A stretch of 64,000 nt of DNA from Candidatus Aenigmatarchaeota archaeon (GTDB taxonomy: Archaea > Aenigmatarchaeota > Aenigmatarchaeia > PWEA01 > JACQIF01). The position numbers and the translations under genes are program-made. Shown one piece after another: positions 2,171 through 56,034 of this stretch; position 1 is the stretch's first letter, and every line of letters begins with the position of its first letter. The notes under the pieces were generated by a model. The model was given only the letters and a program-made list of their open reading frames with translations, was not told the DNA's origin and made no database searches. The stretch spans positions 124,001-188,000 of the forward strand of contig CP066684.1 of assembly GCA_016432325.1 (NCBI GenBank). Reading direction: 5' to 3'.

Positions 2171-3178
2171 TTAGTCGTGCACGAGAGGCGCAATCTTGCG
2201 CGGTTCAAAGCCGTTGCCGTTGGTGGTGTCCTTGTGTCTAATTTCCACCCACCCCGCGACGCGCTCGGCAATAGCATCTGGAGTGAAGCCGGCCTTGCGG
2301 TACAGGTCTTTCGGCGAGCCGGTCTCCCCCTTCTCGGCCCCTATTCTGCGCATGTGGGTCGGATACCTCTCCGAAAGCACGTCAGATACACTGCTCCCCA
2401 GCCCGCCGTCTATGCTGTGGTCTTCTGCTGTTACGACAAGACCGGTCTTCCTTGCATACTGTTCGATAAGCAAAGAGTCTATCGGTTTTATGGACGAGAT
2501 GTTTATCACCGCCGCACTCACGCCAGATCCCTCCAGCAGTGCTGCGGCTCCCAGCGACGGTTCTATCAGCGCCCCATAGCTCATTATCGCTACGTCGTCG
2601 CCGTCGCGAAGCACCTCGCCCTTTCCTATAGACCATTCCCAGTTGTCGTCGTGCAACGTCAATACTTCTGCGCGGGTCATGCTCATCGTCGCGGGTCCCG
2701 CGTATTTCGGGTCTTTTACGTTTGCGAGTTTGACTGTCATCTGTTTCGCTTCAACCCAGTCCGCCGGGCATAACACGGTGTCCGAGATCGCCTTGTTGTA
2801 TGATAGATAGTTGAGAACCTGGTTGCTCACGCCGTCTTGTCCGACCTGCAAGCCGACATGGCTGCCTACCTTGCAGACGTTGAGCTTCGCGCGCCTGACT
2901 ATCTGTTCGAACGGTTCGGCGGCGAGTTTGGAGAATCCCTCGAAGGTGGCGTAATAGACGCGTTCGCCTGTACGATGCGCCGCACCAGCCGCCATTGTGA
3001 CGCTGTCCTGTTCCGCTATGCCCGCATCAACGATGCGCCGCGGGTACTGTGCAGCGAAGTCCGCGAGGGACATGGAATTGCCAAGGTCCGATACGTAAAC
3101 GCGGATATTGTGCGTCTTGGCCGCTTCCACAGCGCCCCGACCGAGGCCGCTTCTCATCGATTCGTGCTGGCCCTTCAT
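2171..3178 (-). CDS. tktB: Transketolase, C-terminal subunit (split form)
   Basis: A 335-residue protein with the pyrimidine-binding and C-terminal domains of a split transketolase. Seen are the region RIVDAGIAEQDSVTMAAGAA with the Glu that activates thiamine diphosphate, and the swivelling C-terminal domain (VVTAEDHSIDGGLGSSVSDVL). Together with the N-terminal subunit encoded just upstream it transfers two-carbon units between sugar phosphates in the non-oxidative pentose phosphate pathway. The start at 3178 is backed by the SD AAGGAGG. A 190 bp spacer packed with hairpins separates the two halves, and the start codons ATGAAGGGC are repeated at its far end (3372). Archaea commonly split this enzyme. 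Confidence 0.88.
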   Translation of the reverse strand: MKGQHESMRSGLGRGAVEAAKTHNIRVYVSDLGNSMSLADFAAQYPRRIVDAGIAEQDSVTMAAGAAHRTGERVYYATFEGFSKLAAEPFEQIVRRAKLNVCKVGSHVGLQVGQDGVSNQVLNYLSYNKAISDTVLCPADWVEAKQMTVKLANVKDPKYAGPATMSMTRAEVLTLHDDNWEWSIGKGEVLRDGDDVAIMSYGALIEPSLGAAALLEGSGVSAAVINISSIKPIDSLLIEQYARKTGLVVTAEDHSIDGGLGSSVSDVLSERYPTHMRRIGAEKGETGSPKDLYRKAGFTPDAIAERVAGWVEIRHKDTTNGNGFEPRKIAPLVHD

Positions 3179-3372
3179 GCGCGACTCCCTCCTTCTCCGC
3201 GCTGCACGGGAACCGCAGTCCCCGGCATTTTCGAACAGCGGTTCGAAACTTTACGAATAGCTATTCGTAAACTTGCGACCGCGTCGCAAGAGTTCGACCG
3301 AAGGCCGAACATGTCGGGAAGCTCCACTTCCCGTACAGGGAAGGATGAAACCGCGTGTTTCGTGCCCTTCAT
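3175..3372 (-). other. Hairpin-rich spacer ORF between transketolase halves
   Basis: A 65-codon ORF starts at 3372 (ATGA overlap with the N-subunit stop) and ends on the ATG of the C-subunit (ATGA overlap). It begins MKGTKHAVSS, similar to the C-subunit start MKGQHESMRS; the first nine bases ATGAAGGGC are identical. Most of its length is made of back-to-back inverted repeats (3229-3333), so the encoded peptide is constrained by RNA structure and is unlikely to be a folded protein. It may act as a translated leader for the C-subunit. Open frame and repeats are seen; role is inferred. Confidence 0.45.
3229..3333. repeat. Chain of five inverted repeats
   Basis: Five hairpins follow each other almost without gaps: TTTCGAAC/GTTCGAAA (3229-3248), the perfect 22 bp palindrome at 3250-3271, CTTGCGAC/GTCGCAAG (3272-3290), GTTCG..CGAAC with an inner CC/GG (3292-3310), and CGGGAAG/CTTCCCG (3315-3333). 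Loops are 0 to 5 nt except in the fourth, which has an internal mismatch. All arms listed are perfect as written. Such a chain in a spacer inside an operon suggests an RNA structure controlling stability or the expression ratio of the two transketolase subunits, or a palindromic mobile repeat. Confidence 0.8.
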
Positions 3373-4304
3373 AGTATCCCCTTGTTGACAAGCCGCCTGC
3401 GGAACTTCTCCTTACCGATATTGGTTTCTATCATGGCCTCTTCCATCTCCCTGTCGTCCAGACAGCGGCCGTGATATTTCGCGCCGCCCTTCTGCATGAA
3501 TCTGACGCCGCTTCCTTTGATCGTATTGGCGACTATTGCTTTCGGTCCTTTCTCGCGCACCCACGCCCAATCCAGCGCGTGCTTTATCTCGCCGTAGTTA
3601 TGGCCGTTTATCTGCATAGTCCTCCAGCCGAATGAGTCGAGTTTCATGTCCAACGGCTCCATATCCTTCGTGCGCCGCGTGAAGTCATCGTTCTGCGCTC
3701 CGTTCTTGTCTACCCATAGAATCGTTTCGAGCTTGTAGTGCGCGGCTGTCGCGACGGCTTCCCACACCTGTCCCTCATTCATCTCGCCATCTCCGACGAT
3801 TGCGATGACGTGCGGTCTCTTCATGGGATTTTTGATTTCGTCGCGCAGAGTGTGCTCAATGCCGTTCGCGAACGAAAGACCCTTGCCCAGACTGCCCGAC
3901 GGGAACTCGACTCCGGGCGTGGTCGTGTCGGCGTGGCCCGGCAATCCCCCGAGGGTGCGGAATGTAGGAAGAGAGCCATAGGGAATGTATCCCTGATGCG
4001 CGAGTTCGGCGTCTAATGCCGGCGAGCAGTGTCCCTTGCTGTAAATCAGATAGTCGCGGCCGTTCCACGTCGGTTCCTGCGGCCTGTGAGCCAGTTTGTG
4101 GTTGTACATCACTTCCAGCGCGTCTATCGCGGACATCGAGCCGCCCGGGTGCCCGGAACCCGCGACCTTGGTCATCCAGAGAATTTCCTGCCTGTGTACG
4201 GTTGCATTGTACCCGAGGATGTCGGGGTCAAACATATTGCGGTCTACGGGAAGAGGCCTCTCGAGCCTTGGAAAAGCAATCGCTGCAGCTGCCACAAACC
4301 CCAC
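3369..4304 (-). CDS. tktA: Transketolase, N-terminal (TPP-binding) subunit
   Basis: The N-terminal half of a split transketolase. Visible are the GSGHPGGSMSAIDALEVMY region, the SKGHCSPALDAELA segment, and the thiamine diphosphate/Mg2+ motif GDGEMNEGQVWEA with the following VDKNGAQNDD. It pairs with the product of the downstream gene. The start is uncertain: the frame is open to 4376, but a TATA-like GGATATATTC at 4321-4334 lies 26 bp before an in-frame GTG at 4304, which fits the leaderless pattern seen across the window; ATG at 4235 would give the usual subunit length of about 288 residues. The stop overlaps the spacer ORF by 4 bp. Confidence 0.85.
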   Translation of the reverse strand: MGFVAAAAIAFPRLERPLPVDRNMFDPDILGYNATVHRQEILWMTKVAGSGHPGGSMSAIDALEVMYNHKLAHRPQEPTWNGRDYLIYSKGHCSPALDAELAHQGYIPYGSLPTFRTLGGLPGHADTTTPGVEFPSGSLGKGLSFANGIEHTLRDEIKNPMKRPHVIAIVGDGEMNEGQVWEAVATAAHYKLETILWVDKNGAQNDDFTRRTKDMEPLDMKLDSFGWRTMQINGHNYGEIKHALDWAWVREKGPKAIVANTIKGSGVRFMQKGGAKYHGRCLDDREMEEAMIETNIGKEKFRRRLVNKGIL

Positions 4305-4352
4305 GCGCCGATTGCCGCGCGAAAGAATATATCCTTTTGTTTTGTCGAGGCG

Positions 4353-4364
4353 CTTAAAAATATG
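4353..4364 (+). promoter_or_regulatory. TATA box for pcm
   Basis: CTTAAAAATATG is centred near 4358, about 25 bp before the ATG at 4382, implying a leaderless pcm mRNA. A separate minus-strand TATA at 4321-4334 serves the divergent transketolase genes, so the two promoters overlap back to back. Confidence 0.55.
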
Positions 4365-4381
4365 AGAGTTCTTCATAGATT

Positions 4382-8743: not shown

Positions 8744-9753
8744 TTGTCGAGCCTTTCCTGCCTCCCTTTGGCGTCTTCAAGCTTTTTAATGGCACTTTCG
8801 ATGCGTTCGCGCCCGAATTCGTGCTCGCTGACCATTATCCGCATTATCTCGTTGACATCAGGCTCGCGCCACTTCAATGTGTAATCGCGCGTCACAGGAG
8901 GGTTCATGAAAAATTCATAGACGTCGTGCGCGGAGACATCCCAACGCCATTCGAGTCCCTCTAACGCATGCGCAAGCGTCTTTTTCCTTTTCACGAGTTC
9001 CAGCGCCTTCTTGGGTCCTATTCCCCTGAAGCCGCCGGGATTGAAGTCCGTGCCTATGAGGACGCCTAGAACGACCAGCTGTTCTCTGTCGATTCCGTTC
9101 GCGCGCAGGGTATCGTCAAGACGAATCATTTCAGGCTCGACGTTCACGTAGACGCGTTTGCCCGGAAGCTTGCGCTTGCCCCCGACAGCGATGTTTCTGA
9201 GAAGCGTCGGCGCTCCGAAAAGAAGGCAGTCGTAGTCTTGCGACGAGACGGCCCACACCTCGCCTCTCTGTGCCATCGCGGCGGCCTGCGCCTCGCCTTC
9301 TGACGGAGCGTTTACGTAAGGAACGCCCATCGCCTCGAGAAGCTCCTTCGCGTCTGCTACTATATCGTCTGTCATGCTCGTGGACATCATGGCGTACTTG
9401 CGGGCCTCTTCCATGTCGCCCTTGGCGAGGGCTTCCTTGTGCAGCGCCTGCGCTTCCTCTTTCACGGCGCGCCTCTGTTCCACCGTCGTAGATTTGAAGA
9501 GCGGTGGAACACCGTCAAAAACGTAACACGGCTTGGCCCCATGCTCAAGAAGCTTTATCGTGCGGTAGAAAAGCCCGGAAAAATGCGACGTGACGCGGCC
9601 TTTGGAGTCACGCAGGGGCGTTCCGTCGGGCTGGCGTATTATCGTCAGGAACTGATAGAGAACGTTCATGGCGTCTATGGCAATTTTGCGGCCTGTCAGG
9701 TCTTCGAGAGTTATAGGCTTCCTGACGAGCATGCCTGAGATGTCAACGCCCAC
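8728..9753 (-). CDS. fen: Flap endonuclease FEN-1
   Basis: A 341-residue structure-specific nuclease that removes 5' flaps during Okazaki fragment maturation and repair. Both XPG domains are complete: N region with AIDAMN and YVFDGVPP, I region with APSEGEAQAAAMA and SSQDYDCLLFG, then the helix-hairpin-helix LIGTDFNPGGFRGIGPKKAL. The C-terminus QERLDKWVKK fits a PCNA-binding PIP box (QxxLxxW). The start is GTG at 9753 giving the invariant MGVDI-type N-terminus. It lies 27 bp after gpmA and may also use a TATA-like ACTATATATG near 9786. Confidence 0.95.
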   Translation of the reverse strand: MGVDISGMLVRKPITLEDLTGRKIAIDAMNVLYQFLTIIRQPDGTPLRDSKGRVTSHFSGLFYRTIKLLEHGAKPCYVFDGVPPLFKSTTVEQRRAVKEEAQALHKEALAKGDMEEARKYAMMSTSMTDDIVADAKELLEAMGVPYVNAPSEGEAQAAAMAQRGEVWAVSSQDYDCLLFGAPTLLRNIAVGGKRKLPGKRVYVNVEPEMIRLDDTLRANGIDREQLVVLGVLIGTDFNPGGFRGIGPKKALELVKRKKTLAHALEGLEWRWDVSAHDVYEFFMNPPVTRDYTLKWREPDVNEIMRIMVSEHEFGRERIESAIKKLEDAKGRQERLDKWVKK

Positions 9754-10428: not shown

Positions 10429-11493
10429 TTACGCTTCCGTGCTTTCCGTTCTTGGCACAATTAAACTGACAATCTCCCCCGCAGCTTCAGGCAGTCCGTT
10501 CGAATAGGCGTTGATACGCGACGCTAATGTCGTGTAGAGCATATATGCCGGCATTAGAGGCGCGGCCAGAACGTCGCGAGTTCCCAGCTTATCGCCAGAC
10601 GCCGCGGCAAGCCCTGCAACAACCGCGCCGCTTGTAACGGCCCACGACGCCGCCTTGTTCAGCGCAGAAGGATCTCCTCTGATTGCAGAGTCGCAGATGT
10701 CGTAGATGCCGAGGGGGATTGTGATGTGCGACGAGACGGCCAGCCACGACGCGGCAGAGAGGCCATTCGGTCTCAGCATGTTCCGCGCAATATACGGAGC
10801 TTCTTTAGCGAGCACGCGCTGGCATCCCCTCTCCCAGCCTGCCCTTTGTCTGGAATGTTGTCCAAGCGTGCGCGGCGCCACTGTTCTGACCTCAATCTCC
10901 GGAATGAAGCCGGCTTTGTAACCGTCTTTCTGAATCTTAATCGTCAGCTCCATGTCGTCTCCCAGATATTCGCCGCTGTGATCGTCGAGAGCATCCTCGA
11001 GAACGCTGCGCCTGTAGATGCTGCCGGCGCCGGGCGTTATCATTTGCCTTCCTCCAAGCAGGCGCCTGAAGCCGTTAGCCATCTTGTATTCCAGAGATTG
11101 CATGCTTCCAAACACGCCTCCGGGGTTCGCCACGTTCATCCGGAAAGCCGCGGCCGCGTATCCTTTCTCCTCCATGCGGCCGCATGCCCACTCCAGATCC
11201 TCCGGCGCGCTGACTATCCGCGTGTCGTCATCCGTAGTAACCACGTAATCTATGTCCTGCGGCAGTCCGTTGACGGCTTTCTTGACCGCACCGACCTTGC
11301 GGCCGTTGACCGCCATCCTGAGAAGCTTCGGTCCCGGCGGGCTGTTGCTTGAAAAGCGCTCTATCTCGCCCAGAGTGCCGTCCGTTGAGGCGTCATCGAC
11401 GAGCGTCATCCGCTGGACGTGCGCGCTGTTGGATTCAAGGCTCGCGCGTATCGTATCGGCGCCGTTGTAGACGGGAACGACAATCTCGTACAT
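10429..11493 (-). CDS. Family 2 glycosyltransferase, membrane associated
   Basis: About 354 residues. The N-terminal GT-A domain starts YEIVVPVYNGADTIRASL, with LVDDASTDGT and the metal-binding TTDDDTR. Later motifs GEYLGDDMELTIKIQ (catalytic Asp region) and QHSRQRAGWERGCQ (Q/RxxRW-like) match processive GT2 enzymes such as N-acetylglucosaminyl transferases. Two or three C-terminal hydrophobic segments anchor it. It probably builds an envelope polysaccharide or glycan; donor and acceptor are unknown. A TATA at 11522-11531 and ATG 11493 fit a nearly leaderless mRNA; GTG 11502 is an alternative start. Confidence 0.8.
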   Translation of the reverse strand: MYEIVVPVYNGADTIRASLESNSAHVQRMTLVDDASTDGTLGEIERFSSNSPPGPKLLRMAVNGRKVGAVKKAVNGLPQDIDYVVTTDDDTRIVSAPEDLEWACGRMEEKGYAAAAFRMNVANPGGVFGSMQSLEYKMANGFRRLLGGRQMITPGAGSIYRRSVLEDALDDHSGEYLGDDMELTIKIQKDGYKAGFIPEIEVRTVAPRTLGQHSRQRAGWERGCQRVLAKEAPYIARNMLRPNGLSAASWLAVSSHITIPLGIYDICDSAIRGDPSALNKAASWAVTSGAVVAGLAAASGDKLGTRDVLAAPLMPAYMLYTTLASRINAYSNGLPEAAGEIVSLIVPRTESTEA

Positions 11494-34408: not shown

Positions 34409-34692
34409 CAGCGCTCACCGACGCTTTTTCTGAGAGCACGCAATATCTCTTCCTCGTCTCCGAGAACGCTCTCCACTATCTCGGATTTTATGCTGTCCGC
34501 CGACTTGAGCCTGCCTTCCATGCCGTCGATTCTGCTTTCAAGCATGCGCACCTTTCGCTTGAGCTCTTCCAGCATGGATGTGAGATACTCTACGTCTTTT
34601 GAAGGCGCGGCGTGCGCGCTTCCGAGTTCTTCCCTGACCTCTTTCAGGGACTCTTCCACGGCTTCACGCACGGCGTCTTTAAGGGTTCCCAT
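34408..34692 (-). CDS. Short coiled-coil protein
   Basis: A 94-residue helical protein (MGTLKDAVREAVEESLKEVR; LTSMLEELKRKVRMLESRID). The start at 34692 has the SD GGTGA. The frame is open upstream to 34782, but that part consists of tandem palindromes and is probably leader. A separate 32-codon upstream ORF at 34796 begins MGTMK, a near copy of this gene's MGTLK. Function unknown; part of the coiled-coil operon. Confidence 0.65.
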   Translation of the reverse strand: MGTLKDAVREAVEESLKEVREELGSAHAAPSKDVEYLTSMLEELKRKVRMLESRIDGMEGRLKSADSIKSEIVESVLGDEEEILRALRKSVGER

Positions 34693-34697
34693 GAACT

Positions 34698-34796
34698 TCA
34701 CCAATTTCCTCGTGGGATGTACGAGAACCACGTTCTCGACATGTCGAAATTCCACGGAATTTCGTACAACTTGAAATCGCATTTCATTGTTCCCAT
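34698..34796 (-). other. Upstream ORF copying the coiled-coil gene start
   Basis: Starting 1 bp after the previous gene's TAG, ATGGGAACAATGAAA (MGTMK) opens a 32-codon ORF ending in TGA, 5 bp before the real start ATGGGAACCCTTAAA (MGTLK). The copies share ATGGGAAC and codon 5. Four palindromes fill the space between. This is the same layout as at the prefoldin, OB-fold and transketolase genes. Confidence 0.5.
34722..34786. repeat. Chain of four palindromes
   Basis: In plus-strand order: CGAGAAC/GTTCTCG (34722-34738, 3 nt loop), the perfect 12 bp palindrome TCGACATGTCGA (34736-34747), CGAAATTCC/GGAATTTCG (34745-34764, 2 nt loop) and TGAAAT-CGC-ATTTCA (34772-34786). Neighbouring palindromes share their outer bases. 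The chain lies in a spacer inside the coiled-coil operon. Confidence 0.8.
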
Positions 34797-51726: not shown

Positions 51727-51744
51727 GATAATCGGAGTTCCTTC

Positions 51745-52015
51745 TGTGGGATAGGCCGGGGGAGCTAGGGGTCCCTTGCAAGCGCAAACCCTCTACAGCG
51801 CGGCCGAAAAGCCTGGAGAGGTCCGGTTGTACGGCAGGCCTCAGGAACTGACTGAGAAGTCCTGTCCTTCTGGAGCGCTTCAGGCGCGAACCTGGTCAGG
51901 CCCGGAAGGGAGCAGCCATAAGCGTCTGCAACGCTGTTAGAAGGGTAGCAGGATGGAGAAGGCTTCTGGGACAACCTTCCGTGTGACCAAAGATCCATCC
52001 AGGCGAATCCCATCA
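51745..52015 (+). ncRNA. ffs: Signal recognition particle 7S RNA
   Basis: The universally conserved helix 8 core GGTCAGGCCCGGAAGGGAGC followed by AGCC occurs near 51895, the SRP54-binding site. The 5' end TGGGAT (51747-51752) pairs with the 3' ATCCCA (52007-52012), forming the closing helix 1 of archaeal 7S RNA. The GGGGTCCC-like segments near 51765 fit the Alu-domain loops and the rest fits the long helix 5. Length is about 270 nt, slightly shorter than in many archaea. It partners SRP54 (14440). Confidence 0.88.
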
Positions 52016-54645: not shown

Positions 54646-54741
54646 ATGAAGTTTACCGCTCAGAGAGCCAAGAGGGACCGGTAAATGCATGAAACTGCGG
54701 TTTCATATTTACTTCGCAGAGATATGGGAGGTGCTCGGTAA
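54646..54741 (+). promoter_or_regulatory. HerA-like gene leader with two in-frame upstream ORFs
   Basis: A TATA (TTTATATCG, about 54617-54625) predicts a start near 54646, where a 12-codon ORF begins (MKFTAQRAKRDR, stop TAA). Directly after its stop, ATG 54685 opens an 18-codon ORF whose TAA touches the HerA-like ATG 54742. All three are in one frame. The 10 bp sequence CGGTAAATGC occurs at both ORF junctions (54679 and 54737). Between them is the perfect hairpin ATGAAAC-TGCG-GTTTCAT (54689-54706), and the SD GGGAGGTG follows. Confidence 0.5.
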
Positions 54742-56034
54742 ATGCCCGTCCGTCCAATAGTCATCGGCAGAGACGAAGAGGACGCGAAGCGTTTTGGCGA
54801 ACTGGGCACGATCACCCTCGGCAAGCACATCGTCGGCACAGGCGAGGACGCGCATCTCACGAACACGATAGTGATGGACGTCGCGCGTCCGCACGTGATG
54901 CTCGTTCTGGGCAAGCGCGGCCAGGGCAAGTCCTACACGCTCGCGACCATAGCAGAAGGCGTAACAGAGCTGCCTAAGGATATCCGCTCGAACCTCTCTG
55001 TCGTGATAATCGATACCATGGGAATCTTCTGGTCCATGAAAAATCCGAACGAAAAACAGGTCGAACTCCTCGCCGCGTGGGGTCTTCAACCCAAGGCTTT
55101 CGACGTTACGGTTTACGTGCCGCACGGCCACAAGGATTTCTTCCATAAGGAGGGCATCCCTTACGACGGGACGTACGCTTTGAATCCGTCTGACCTTACT
55201 CCAGAGGACTGGGCGCTGTCTTTCGAACTGTCTCTGATAGACCCGACTGGCATACTTCTCGATCGTGTCGTGCGCAAGCTGAAAGAGAGCGGCAGCTATG
55301 GAATCGACGACATCATAGAAGCCGTAGACGCGGACAGGCGGGCCGAGCCGAAAGTCAAGGAAGCCCTGCAGAACCGCCTGCTTTCGGCAAAGGAGTGGGG
55401 TCTCTTCTCGTCGCGCGGCACGCCGATAGAGGAGCTCCTGCAGCCCGGCAAGGTTTCTATAATCGACACGTCGCTCTTCAGCCAGCTCGGGGAAGGATGG
55501 AGCGTGCGCTCGCTTCTTGTGGGTTTGGTGGCTCGTCGCATATACGAAGCCCGCATCGCCGCCCGCAGGCGCGAGGAGACAGAACTGATCACCGGTACGG
55601 TCGCCAAGAAGAAGATTCCTTTGACGTGGTTGATGATAGACGAGGCGCACCAGTTCCTGCCGGCGGACGGACGTACAGCGGCCACTGAAGCGCTGCTCTC
55701 TCTCGTGAAGCAGGGCCGCCAGCCCGGCATTTCCTGCGTGTTCGCCACTCAACGCCCGAACAAGCTTCACGAGGACGCGATATCGCAGGCCGACCTCGTG
55801 CTCACGCACCGCCTGACAGTAAAGGCGGACATCGATGCGCTGCGCAGCATCATGCAGACGTACGTTCTTTTCGACATCACGAAATATCTCAATGAACTGC
55901 CTCGCGAGAAAGGTGTGGCGCTTGTGCTGGACGACAATTCGGAACGCCTGTTTACGTTGAAGGTAAAACCGCGCCAGTCATGGCATGCAGGCGACACGCC
56001 GATAGCGCTGAGAGTGAAGGAAGGGCTGGTTTAG
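54742..56034 (+). CDS. HerA-like/FtsK-type ATPase (DUF87)
   Basis: A 430-residue ATPase. The N-terminal beta HAS-like region (GTITLGKHIVGTGEDAHLTN) leads to Walker A VLGKRGQGKSYTLATIAEG (about 55-73), Walker B PLTWLMIDEAHQFLP and the arginine/sensor region ISCVFATQRPNKLHEDAISQ. Such ATPases form hexamers that pump DNA or proteins. True HerA works with NurA in end resection, but no nurA is seen nearby, so the role is open. The SD is GGGAGGTG before ATG 54742. It overlaps purB by 4 bp at the 3' end. Confidence 0.82.
   Translation: MPVRPIVIGRDEEDAKRFGELGTITLGKHIVGTGEDAHLTNTIVMDVARPHVMLVLGKRGQGKSYTLATIAEGVTELPKDIRSNLSVVIIDTMGIFWSMKNPNEKQVELLAAWGLQPKAFDVTVYVPHGHKDFFHKEGIPYDGTYALNPSDLTPEDWALSFELSLIDPTGILLDRVVRKLKESGSYGIDDIIEAVDADRRAEPKVKEALQNRLLSAKEWGLFSSRGTPIEELLQPGKVSIIDTSLFSQLGEGWSVRSLLVGLVARRIYEARIAARRREETELITGTVAKKKIPLTWLMIDEAHQFLPADGRTAATEALLSLVKQGRQPGISCVFATQRPNKLHEDAISQADLVLTHRLTVKADIDALRSIMQTYVLFDITKYLNELPREKGVALVLDDNSERLFTLKVKPRQSWHAGDTPIALRVKEGLV

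Follow-up and report, generated by a model that had tools for sequence, protein, structure and literature searches.

A probable modular palindromic element inserted between the two genes of a split archaeal transketolase

The spacer that separates tktN from tktC very probably arose by insertion of one copy of a palindromic element that is modular, non-autonomous and specific to the genus. Our comparisons establish that the spacer is an insertion, that its modules are kin to others in the genome, that the pattern of one module type (B) is restricted to the genus, and that copies in coding genes keep the reading frame. The window, by which we mean the whole stretch of 64,000 nucleotides analyzed, is G000:C1:124001-188000, and the G000 genome is a single contig of 874,769 bp. 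The junction carries the following features.

3369–4376, minus strand: tktN, Transketolase_N by Pfam
2171–3178, minus strand: tktC, Transket_pyr and Transketolase_C by Pfam
3364–3372, minus strand: upstream copy of ATGAAGGGC, which makes ATGA with the tktN stop and at which the spacer ORF begins
3170–3178, minus strand: downstream copy of ATGAAGGGC, containing the tktC start codon
3179–3363, minus strand: inserted hairpin array, repeats excluded, supported by fold, hairpin scan and the empty junction in relatives
3175–3372, minus strand: spacer ORF of 65 codons plus stop, overlapping the tktN stop and the tktC start
3187–3194, minus strand: AAGGAGGG, within the element and 5′ of tktC, putatively Shine-Dalgarno-like as judged from sequence

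The Pfam domains of both genes agree with the split transketolase proposed in the preliminary description, which also reported a 9-base repeat at the tktC start and 194 bp upstream over the tktN stop; both copies were located at that spacing. ATGAAGGGC has four occurrences in the window where 0.43 would be expected, and a given 9-mer would recur by chance inside 200 bp with p ~ 200/4^9 = 8e-4. The inverted repeats said to pack the spacer were found as seven perfect or near-perfect hairpins between the direct repeats, the densest hairpin cluster of the window, with an RNA fold of -97 kcal/mol (z = -5.2). An Rfam search of the spacer matched no family. The claim that the spacer is open in frame holds from the upstream ATG, whose 65 codons encode the peptide MKGTKHAVSS...GGSRA before a TGA that overlaps the tktC ATG, but fails for the tktC frame because 194 is not divisible by 3. 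Taken alone, this openness is weakly unlikely, as 22% of shuffles end equally near.

Within the spacer, the hairpins are laid out as D - B(A A A A)B.

3347–3361, minus strand: D-type hairpin GAAACACGCGGTTTC, adjoining the direct repeat
3203–3337, minus strand: B module, TGTA-hairpin-ACAT ... ATGC-hairpin-TGCA, with four A hairpins inside
3315–3333, minus strand: B hairpin 1, CGGGAAG-TGGAG-CTTCCCG
3292–3310, minus strand: A hairpin GTTCGGCC-TTC-GGTCGAAC, with one G-U pair on the mRNA strand
3272–3290, minus strand: A hairpin CTTGCGAC-GCG-GTCGCAAG, from the hairpin scan
3250–3271, minus strand: A hairpin TTTACGAATAGCTATTCGTAAA, from the hairpin scan
3229–3248, minus strand: A hairpin TTTCGAAC-CGCT-GTTCGAAA, from the hairpin scan
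3207–3224, minus strand: B hairpin 2, CGGGGAC-TGCG-GTTCCCG, with one G-U pair on the mRNA strand

Both mismatched stems thus carry their G-U pair on the mRNA strand. Selection at the RNA level, argued from an asymmetry of G-U and A-C pairs between the strands, was considered and dropped: five GU-type pairs against one AC are too few, and some lie outside elements.

An empty tktN-tktC junction in relatives would speak for insertion, and this is what we found: where relatives keep tktN beside tktC, the two genes overlap, with no spacer, as ATGA in L003, L004 and L069, as GTGA in L006 and as ATGGTGA in L002. Since the relatives' genes overlap in this way, we read the G000 spacer as an insertion into an ATGA overlap. 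The tkt empty site rests on relatives at ~35–40% protein identity because the assembly of G001, the sole same-genus genome (its FEN1 is 76% identical to that of G000), is without the tkt locus. At other sites G001 supplies the comparison directly. It is empty where, in G000, 48 bp are inserted in frame close to the beginning of an L7Ae-like gene, for two in-frame inserts (42 and 45 bp) of one G000 ORF, for a 45-bp N-terminal insert, and for one copy at an operon junction. The G000 RNase P RNA (L158:300-780) contains a B-type pair and, toward the 3′ end, a further pair of hairpins, and G001 has neither; against Rfam RF00373 the G001 RNA scores 103.6 bits and the interrupted G000 RNA 56.4 bits. 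G001 bears module copies of its own at other positions, so that element positions differ between the two genomes. The names L7Ae, S12 and pilin used here come from reading the sequence rather than from a family search.

Further loci bear inserts as well. In pilin-like signal peptides, in-frame elements immediately precede the KGxS/KAQTG motif (L034 minus strand, L056:5070-5230, L062 minus strand), a place at which cleavage would remove the leader, and an insert with an 18-bp direct repeat in a C-terminal coding region (L057 minus strand, ~2480-2630) leaves GGKRGK doubled in the protein. Apart from the inserts, an archaeal SRP RNA (Rfam RF01857) lies at 51744-52015 of the window; with the archaeal RNase P RNA and a gene for a tRNA-splicing endonuclease, it identifies the genome as archaeal.

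By sequence reading, tRNA genes for Met, Gly-TCC, Arg-TCG and Gly-GCC carry inserts in D-, anticodon- and T-loops (L041:1960-2190; L051 ~11170-11490; L063 minus ~2330-2700; L053 minus ~6560 from the 5′ end), and these insert-bearing tRNAs escape standard finders. A near-identical insert of ~85 nt with B hairpins occupies different positions in three tRNAs. At L041:1450-1565 and L142:2230-2300, A-type hairpin pairs abut tRNA 3′ ends and the tRNA end is duplicated beyond them, as GGGTCCACCA in G000 and CGCGGCGC in G001.

The presence of B hairpins in tRNA inserts at D-, anticodon- and T-loops speaks for an intron-like reading, by which the splicing endonuclease would excise the array from the mRNA, as it does tRNA introns, leaving one ATGAAGGGC. 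The genome holds one tRNA_int_endo gene and excision would restore the ancestral overlap, but the coding copies keep frame (42, 45, 45 and 48 bp) and keep their frames open, neither of which splicing needs, and we consider this reading very unlikely.

The kinship of the spacer with other loci lies in its modules. Module counts were made in 352 kb of G000 (a 40% sample, in stretches) and supplemented with genome-wide searches. As a genome query, the spacer gave about twenty short matches, most of those inspected lying within arrays of short, perfect hairpins that obey one grammar. A homologue of the whole 185-bp spacer was set aside as a candidate, as BLAST of the genome gave module-sized matches only; the other genomic copies that the preliminary description proposed to look for exist as recurring modules and not at full length. 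The B grammar is TGYA-(CG..CG hairpin)-RCAT, and B frequently takes the form of an inverted pair TGYA-hp-RCATGY-hp-TRCA; the A grammar has two hairpins, T-(YTTCGAAC..GTTCGAAR)-TA-(hp)-A, solitary or centered in a B pair; and the D grammar is TGAAAC-NGCG-GTTTCA. Per 352 kb there are 24 B units against 0.4 in shuffles, and 23 D hairpins against 1.7. The pattern TGTACGN{9,19}CGACAT, which imposes no palindrome, has 21 matches in G000, 18 of them palindromic, and five in the same-genus G001; in 93 other relatives it gave scattered matches at chance level only. The stems vary in sequence yet remain paired. The bulge-flanking pair at B positions 3/21 (Y3-R21), whose pairing the search did not demand, covaries (U-A 11, C-G 8, U-G 1); since the search did demand pairing elsewhere in the stem, covariation of those pairs adds no independent evidence. 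Hairpin density (stem of at least 7) fails to distinguish G000 from its class relatives, and for this reason the case rests on common module sequence and not on hairpin number.

Two more elements lie in the window.

34685–34796, minus strand: D and two B hairpins, with ATGGGAAC at 34789–34796 and 34685–34692 and a 32-codon ORF across
54679–54745, plus strand: D only, with CGGTAAATGC at 54679–54688 and 54736–54745 and an 18-codon ORF that ends TAAATG

The second ATGGGAAC copy (34685–34692) is the start of the downstream gene, and the D-only element lies where an ATPase-like ORF begins (54742). Separately, G085, a genome of the same class (L136-L141 and others), carries 21 copies of a different hairpin repeat peculiar to it, TACAGCAGAAGCTATGCTTCTGCATGT, which contains a bulged A and came to light solely through a match to the reversed control pattern.

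Direct repeats are enriched across the family without being constant. An exact direct repeat of at least 8 bp in the flanking 40 bp accompanies 9 of 37 elements against 3% of random controls, and one of at least 10 bp lies beside 9 of 32 D hairpins against 2% of controls. Repeat length ranges from 8 to 18 bp, the repeats lie mostly beside a D hairpin, and many copies have none. Duplication is not universal, being absent where A-type modules have inserted precisely into coding sequence, and it may not be part of basic A and B mobility. A direct repeat TTCGCAA at L049 is probably a chance occurrence, as comparison with the G001 protein fits an insertion of 45 bp and no duplication. Inverted repeats of at least 6 bp flank some D and A copies (18–22% against 3.4% by chance), and A modules sit at the RCAT/ATGY center of B pairs, about one-fifth of them having outer inverted repeats.

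Flanking inverted repeats above chance on some D and A copies, together with the varying length of the direct repeats, would suit a local origin in which stalled replication folded back and made the inverted copies and the direct duplication on site, with no mobile element. Against this, TGYACG...CGRCAT, TGAAACNGCGGTTTCA and TTCGAAC...GTTCGAA are common to unlinked sites and to two species; because of this sharing we conclude that the module copies descend from common copies, and a fold-back origin is most unlikely.

At gene starts, the repeats hold the start codon or Shine-Dalgarno sequence: ATGAAGGGC at tkt, ATGGGAAC at 34,690, CGGTAAATGC at 54,690, TAAATGGA in L050, TACGGAGGTG in L063 and AGTAAATGC at a ribosomal S12-like gene, whose G000 insert is absent in the relative G003. 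In all six gene-start copies an ORF runs from in or beside the upstream repeat across the element and ends a few bases from the next start. Repeat boundaries that coincide exactly with the start codon (two of six) were discarded as a signal, being explained by selection that preserves stop and start. A leader MHETAVSYL... ending TAAATG precedes different genes at window 54676-54745, at L050 (minus, ~8780-8820 from the 5′ end) and at L064:15639-15705.

Such translated leaders at several gene starts, with MHETAVSYL...R in at least three, could be taken to mean that the hairpin array and 65-codon upstream ORF form a leader that governs translation of tktC, through attenuation or the masking of AAGGAGGG, for instance. 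The very stable fold is in keeping with this, and the minimum free energy structure pairs the Shine-Dalgarno-like AAGGAGGG with CATCCTTCCC. Yet the relatives' tktN-tktC junction is without a spacer, the elements of G000 and those of G001 occupy different positions, and modules are also found in tRNA inserts, in RNase P RNA and inside coding sequence, places in which acting as a leader would be senseless. We therefore disfavor the conserved regulatory leader considered in the preliminary description, and a leader of this kind is quite improbable.

We return to the inserted, modular element as the best explanation. The element would have inserted at the ATGA overlap with duplication of ATGAAGGGC, and because of that duplication tktN would retain its stop and tktC its start. 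The A modules may have entered the palindromic center of the B module later. A ribosome finishing tktN could restart at the overlapping ATG and translate the 65-codon ORF, melting the hairpins, and termination at the TGA overlapping the tktC ATG would then couple tktN to tktC; ribosome loading may also be possible at the element-borne AAGGAGGG. We take it most likely to be a neutral or selfish element, tolerated because both genes are preserved, and not a regulator.

The preliminary description had raised a MITE-like insertion with target-site duplication as an alternative to a regulatory leader. Insertion, the 9-bp duplication, dispersed copies and the empty site bear this out, and the likeness to MITEs extends to target-site duplication, seen as the 9 bp at tkt and as enrichment in the family, though absent on some copies. 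A one-piece MITE does not fit: the tkt array is a nest of hairpin modules, the flanking repeats of the family vary between 8 and 18 bp, and some module insertions are without duplication, all of which speaks against a classical element of that kind. The ends of the B module are inverted (TGYACG/CGTRCA), and extra sequence separates B from the direct repeat. Counting against our best explanation, and against a classical MITE too, Y1_Tnp, DDE_Tnp_1 and RVT_1, the three families sought as the mobilizing enzyme, are absent from G000. A bolder and rather unlikely proposal is a structure-targeted mobile element of a new class in DPANN archaea, whose modules would insert at the apices or centers of other hairpins (in DNA or through RNA), building up branched arrays, and would enter stop/start overlaps with a copy made of the start region; loops of tRNA and of RNase P RNA would fall in its target range, and its mobilizing enzyme would be of an unrecognized type.

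Among known systems, the Rickettsia palindromic elements (RPE) are the nearest analogue: both families have dispersed palindromes in intergenic DNA, in frame within protein genes, and in RNA genes including RNase P RNA, and RPE lie in tmRNA too (PMC2229807). RPE are stem-loops of 105–146 bp in a bacterial host, whereas the G000 family, compared by description, consists of arrays of 2–7 short hairpins with exchangeable modules in an archaeal host, lies also in tRNA inserts, and duplicates stop/start overlaps. REPINs are tied to RAYT transposases (PMC3116915). The two-hairpin B form resembles REPIN/REP sequences as an inverted pair of tagged hairpins, but the G000 family carries A and D modules, has direct repeats of 8–18 bp at some copies, and is not confined to extragenic DNA, having in-frame copies and a copy in RNase P RNA. 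A RAYT/REPIN origin was rejected, as no Y1_Tnp was found in G000 while positive controls were detected. The YPAL elements of Yersinia (YPAL/RU-2) share variable-length target duplications, of 3–26 bp, and targets at or beside dyad symmetry (PMC2229807). They differ, by description rather than by sequence, in their 168-bp unit and their host. A study cited in PMC2229807 (Suyama et al. 2005) reported repeats of archaea whose ORFs are fused into protein genes. The palindromic elements concerned, which have coding potential, are reportedly from Methanocaldococcus jannaschii. By description, they resemble the G000 family in these fusions and differ in that the account consulted mentions neither a modular hairpin grammar nor RNA-gene copies. 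A literature search found no paper describing the present hairpin family.

A tiny, streamlined archaeal genome thus holds many copies of a short palindromic element; they lie in essential genes, in tRNAs and in RNase P RNA, none of which they seem to have destroyed. The tkt junction shows how an element can land on a stop/start overlap, with the overlap duplicated and the element still translatable. Pairs of filled and empty sites in two congeners provide material for studying the movement of palindromic elements that encode no protein.
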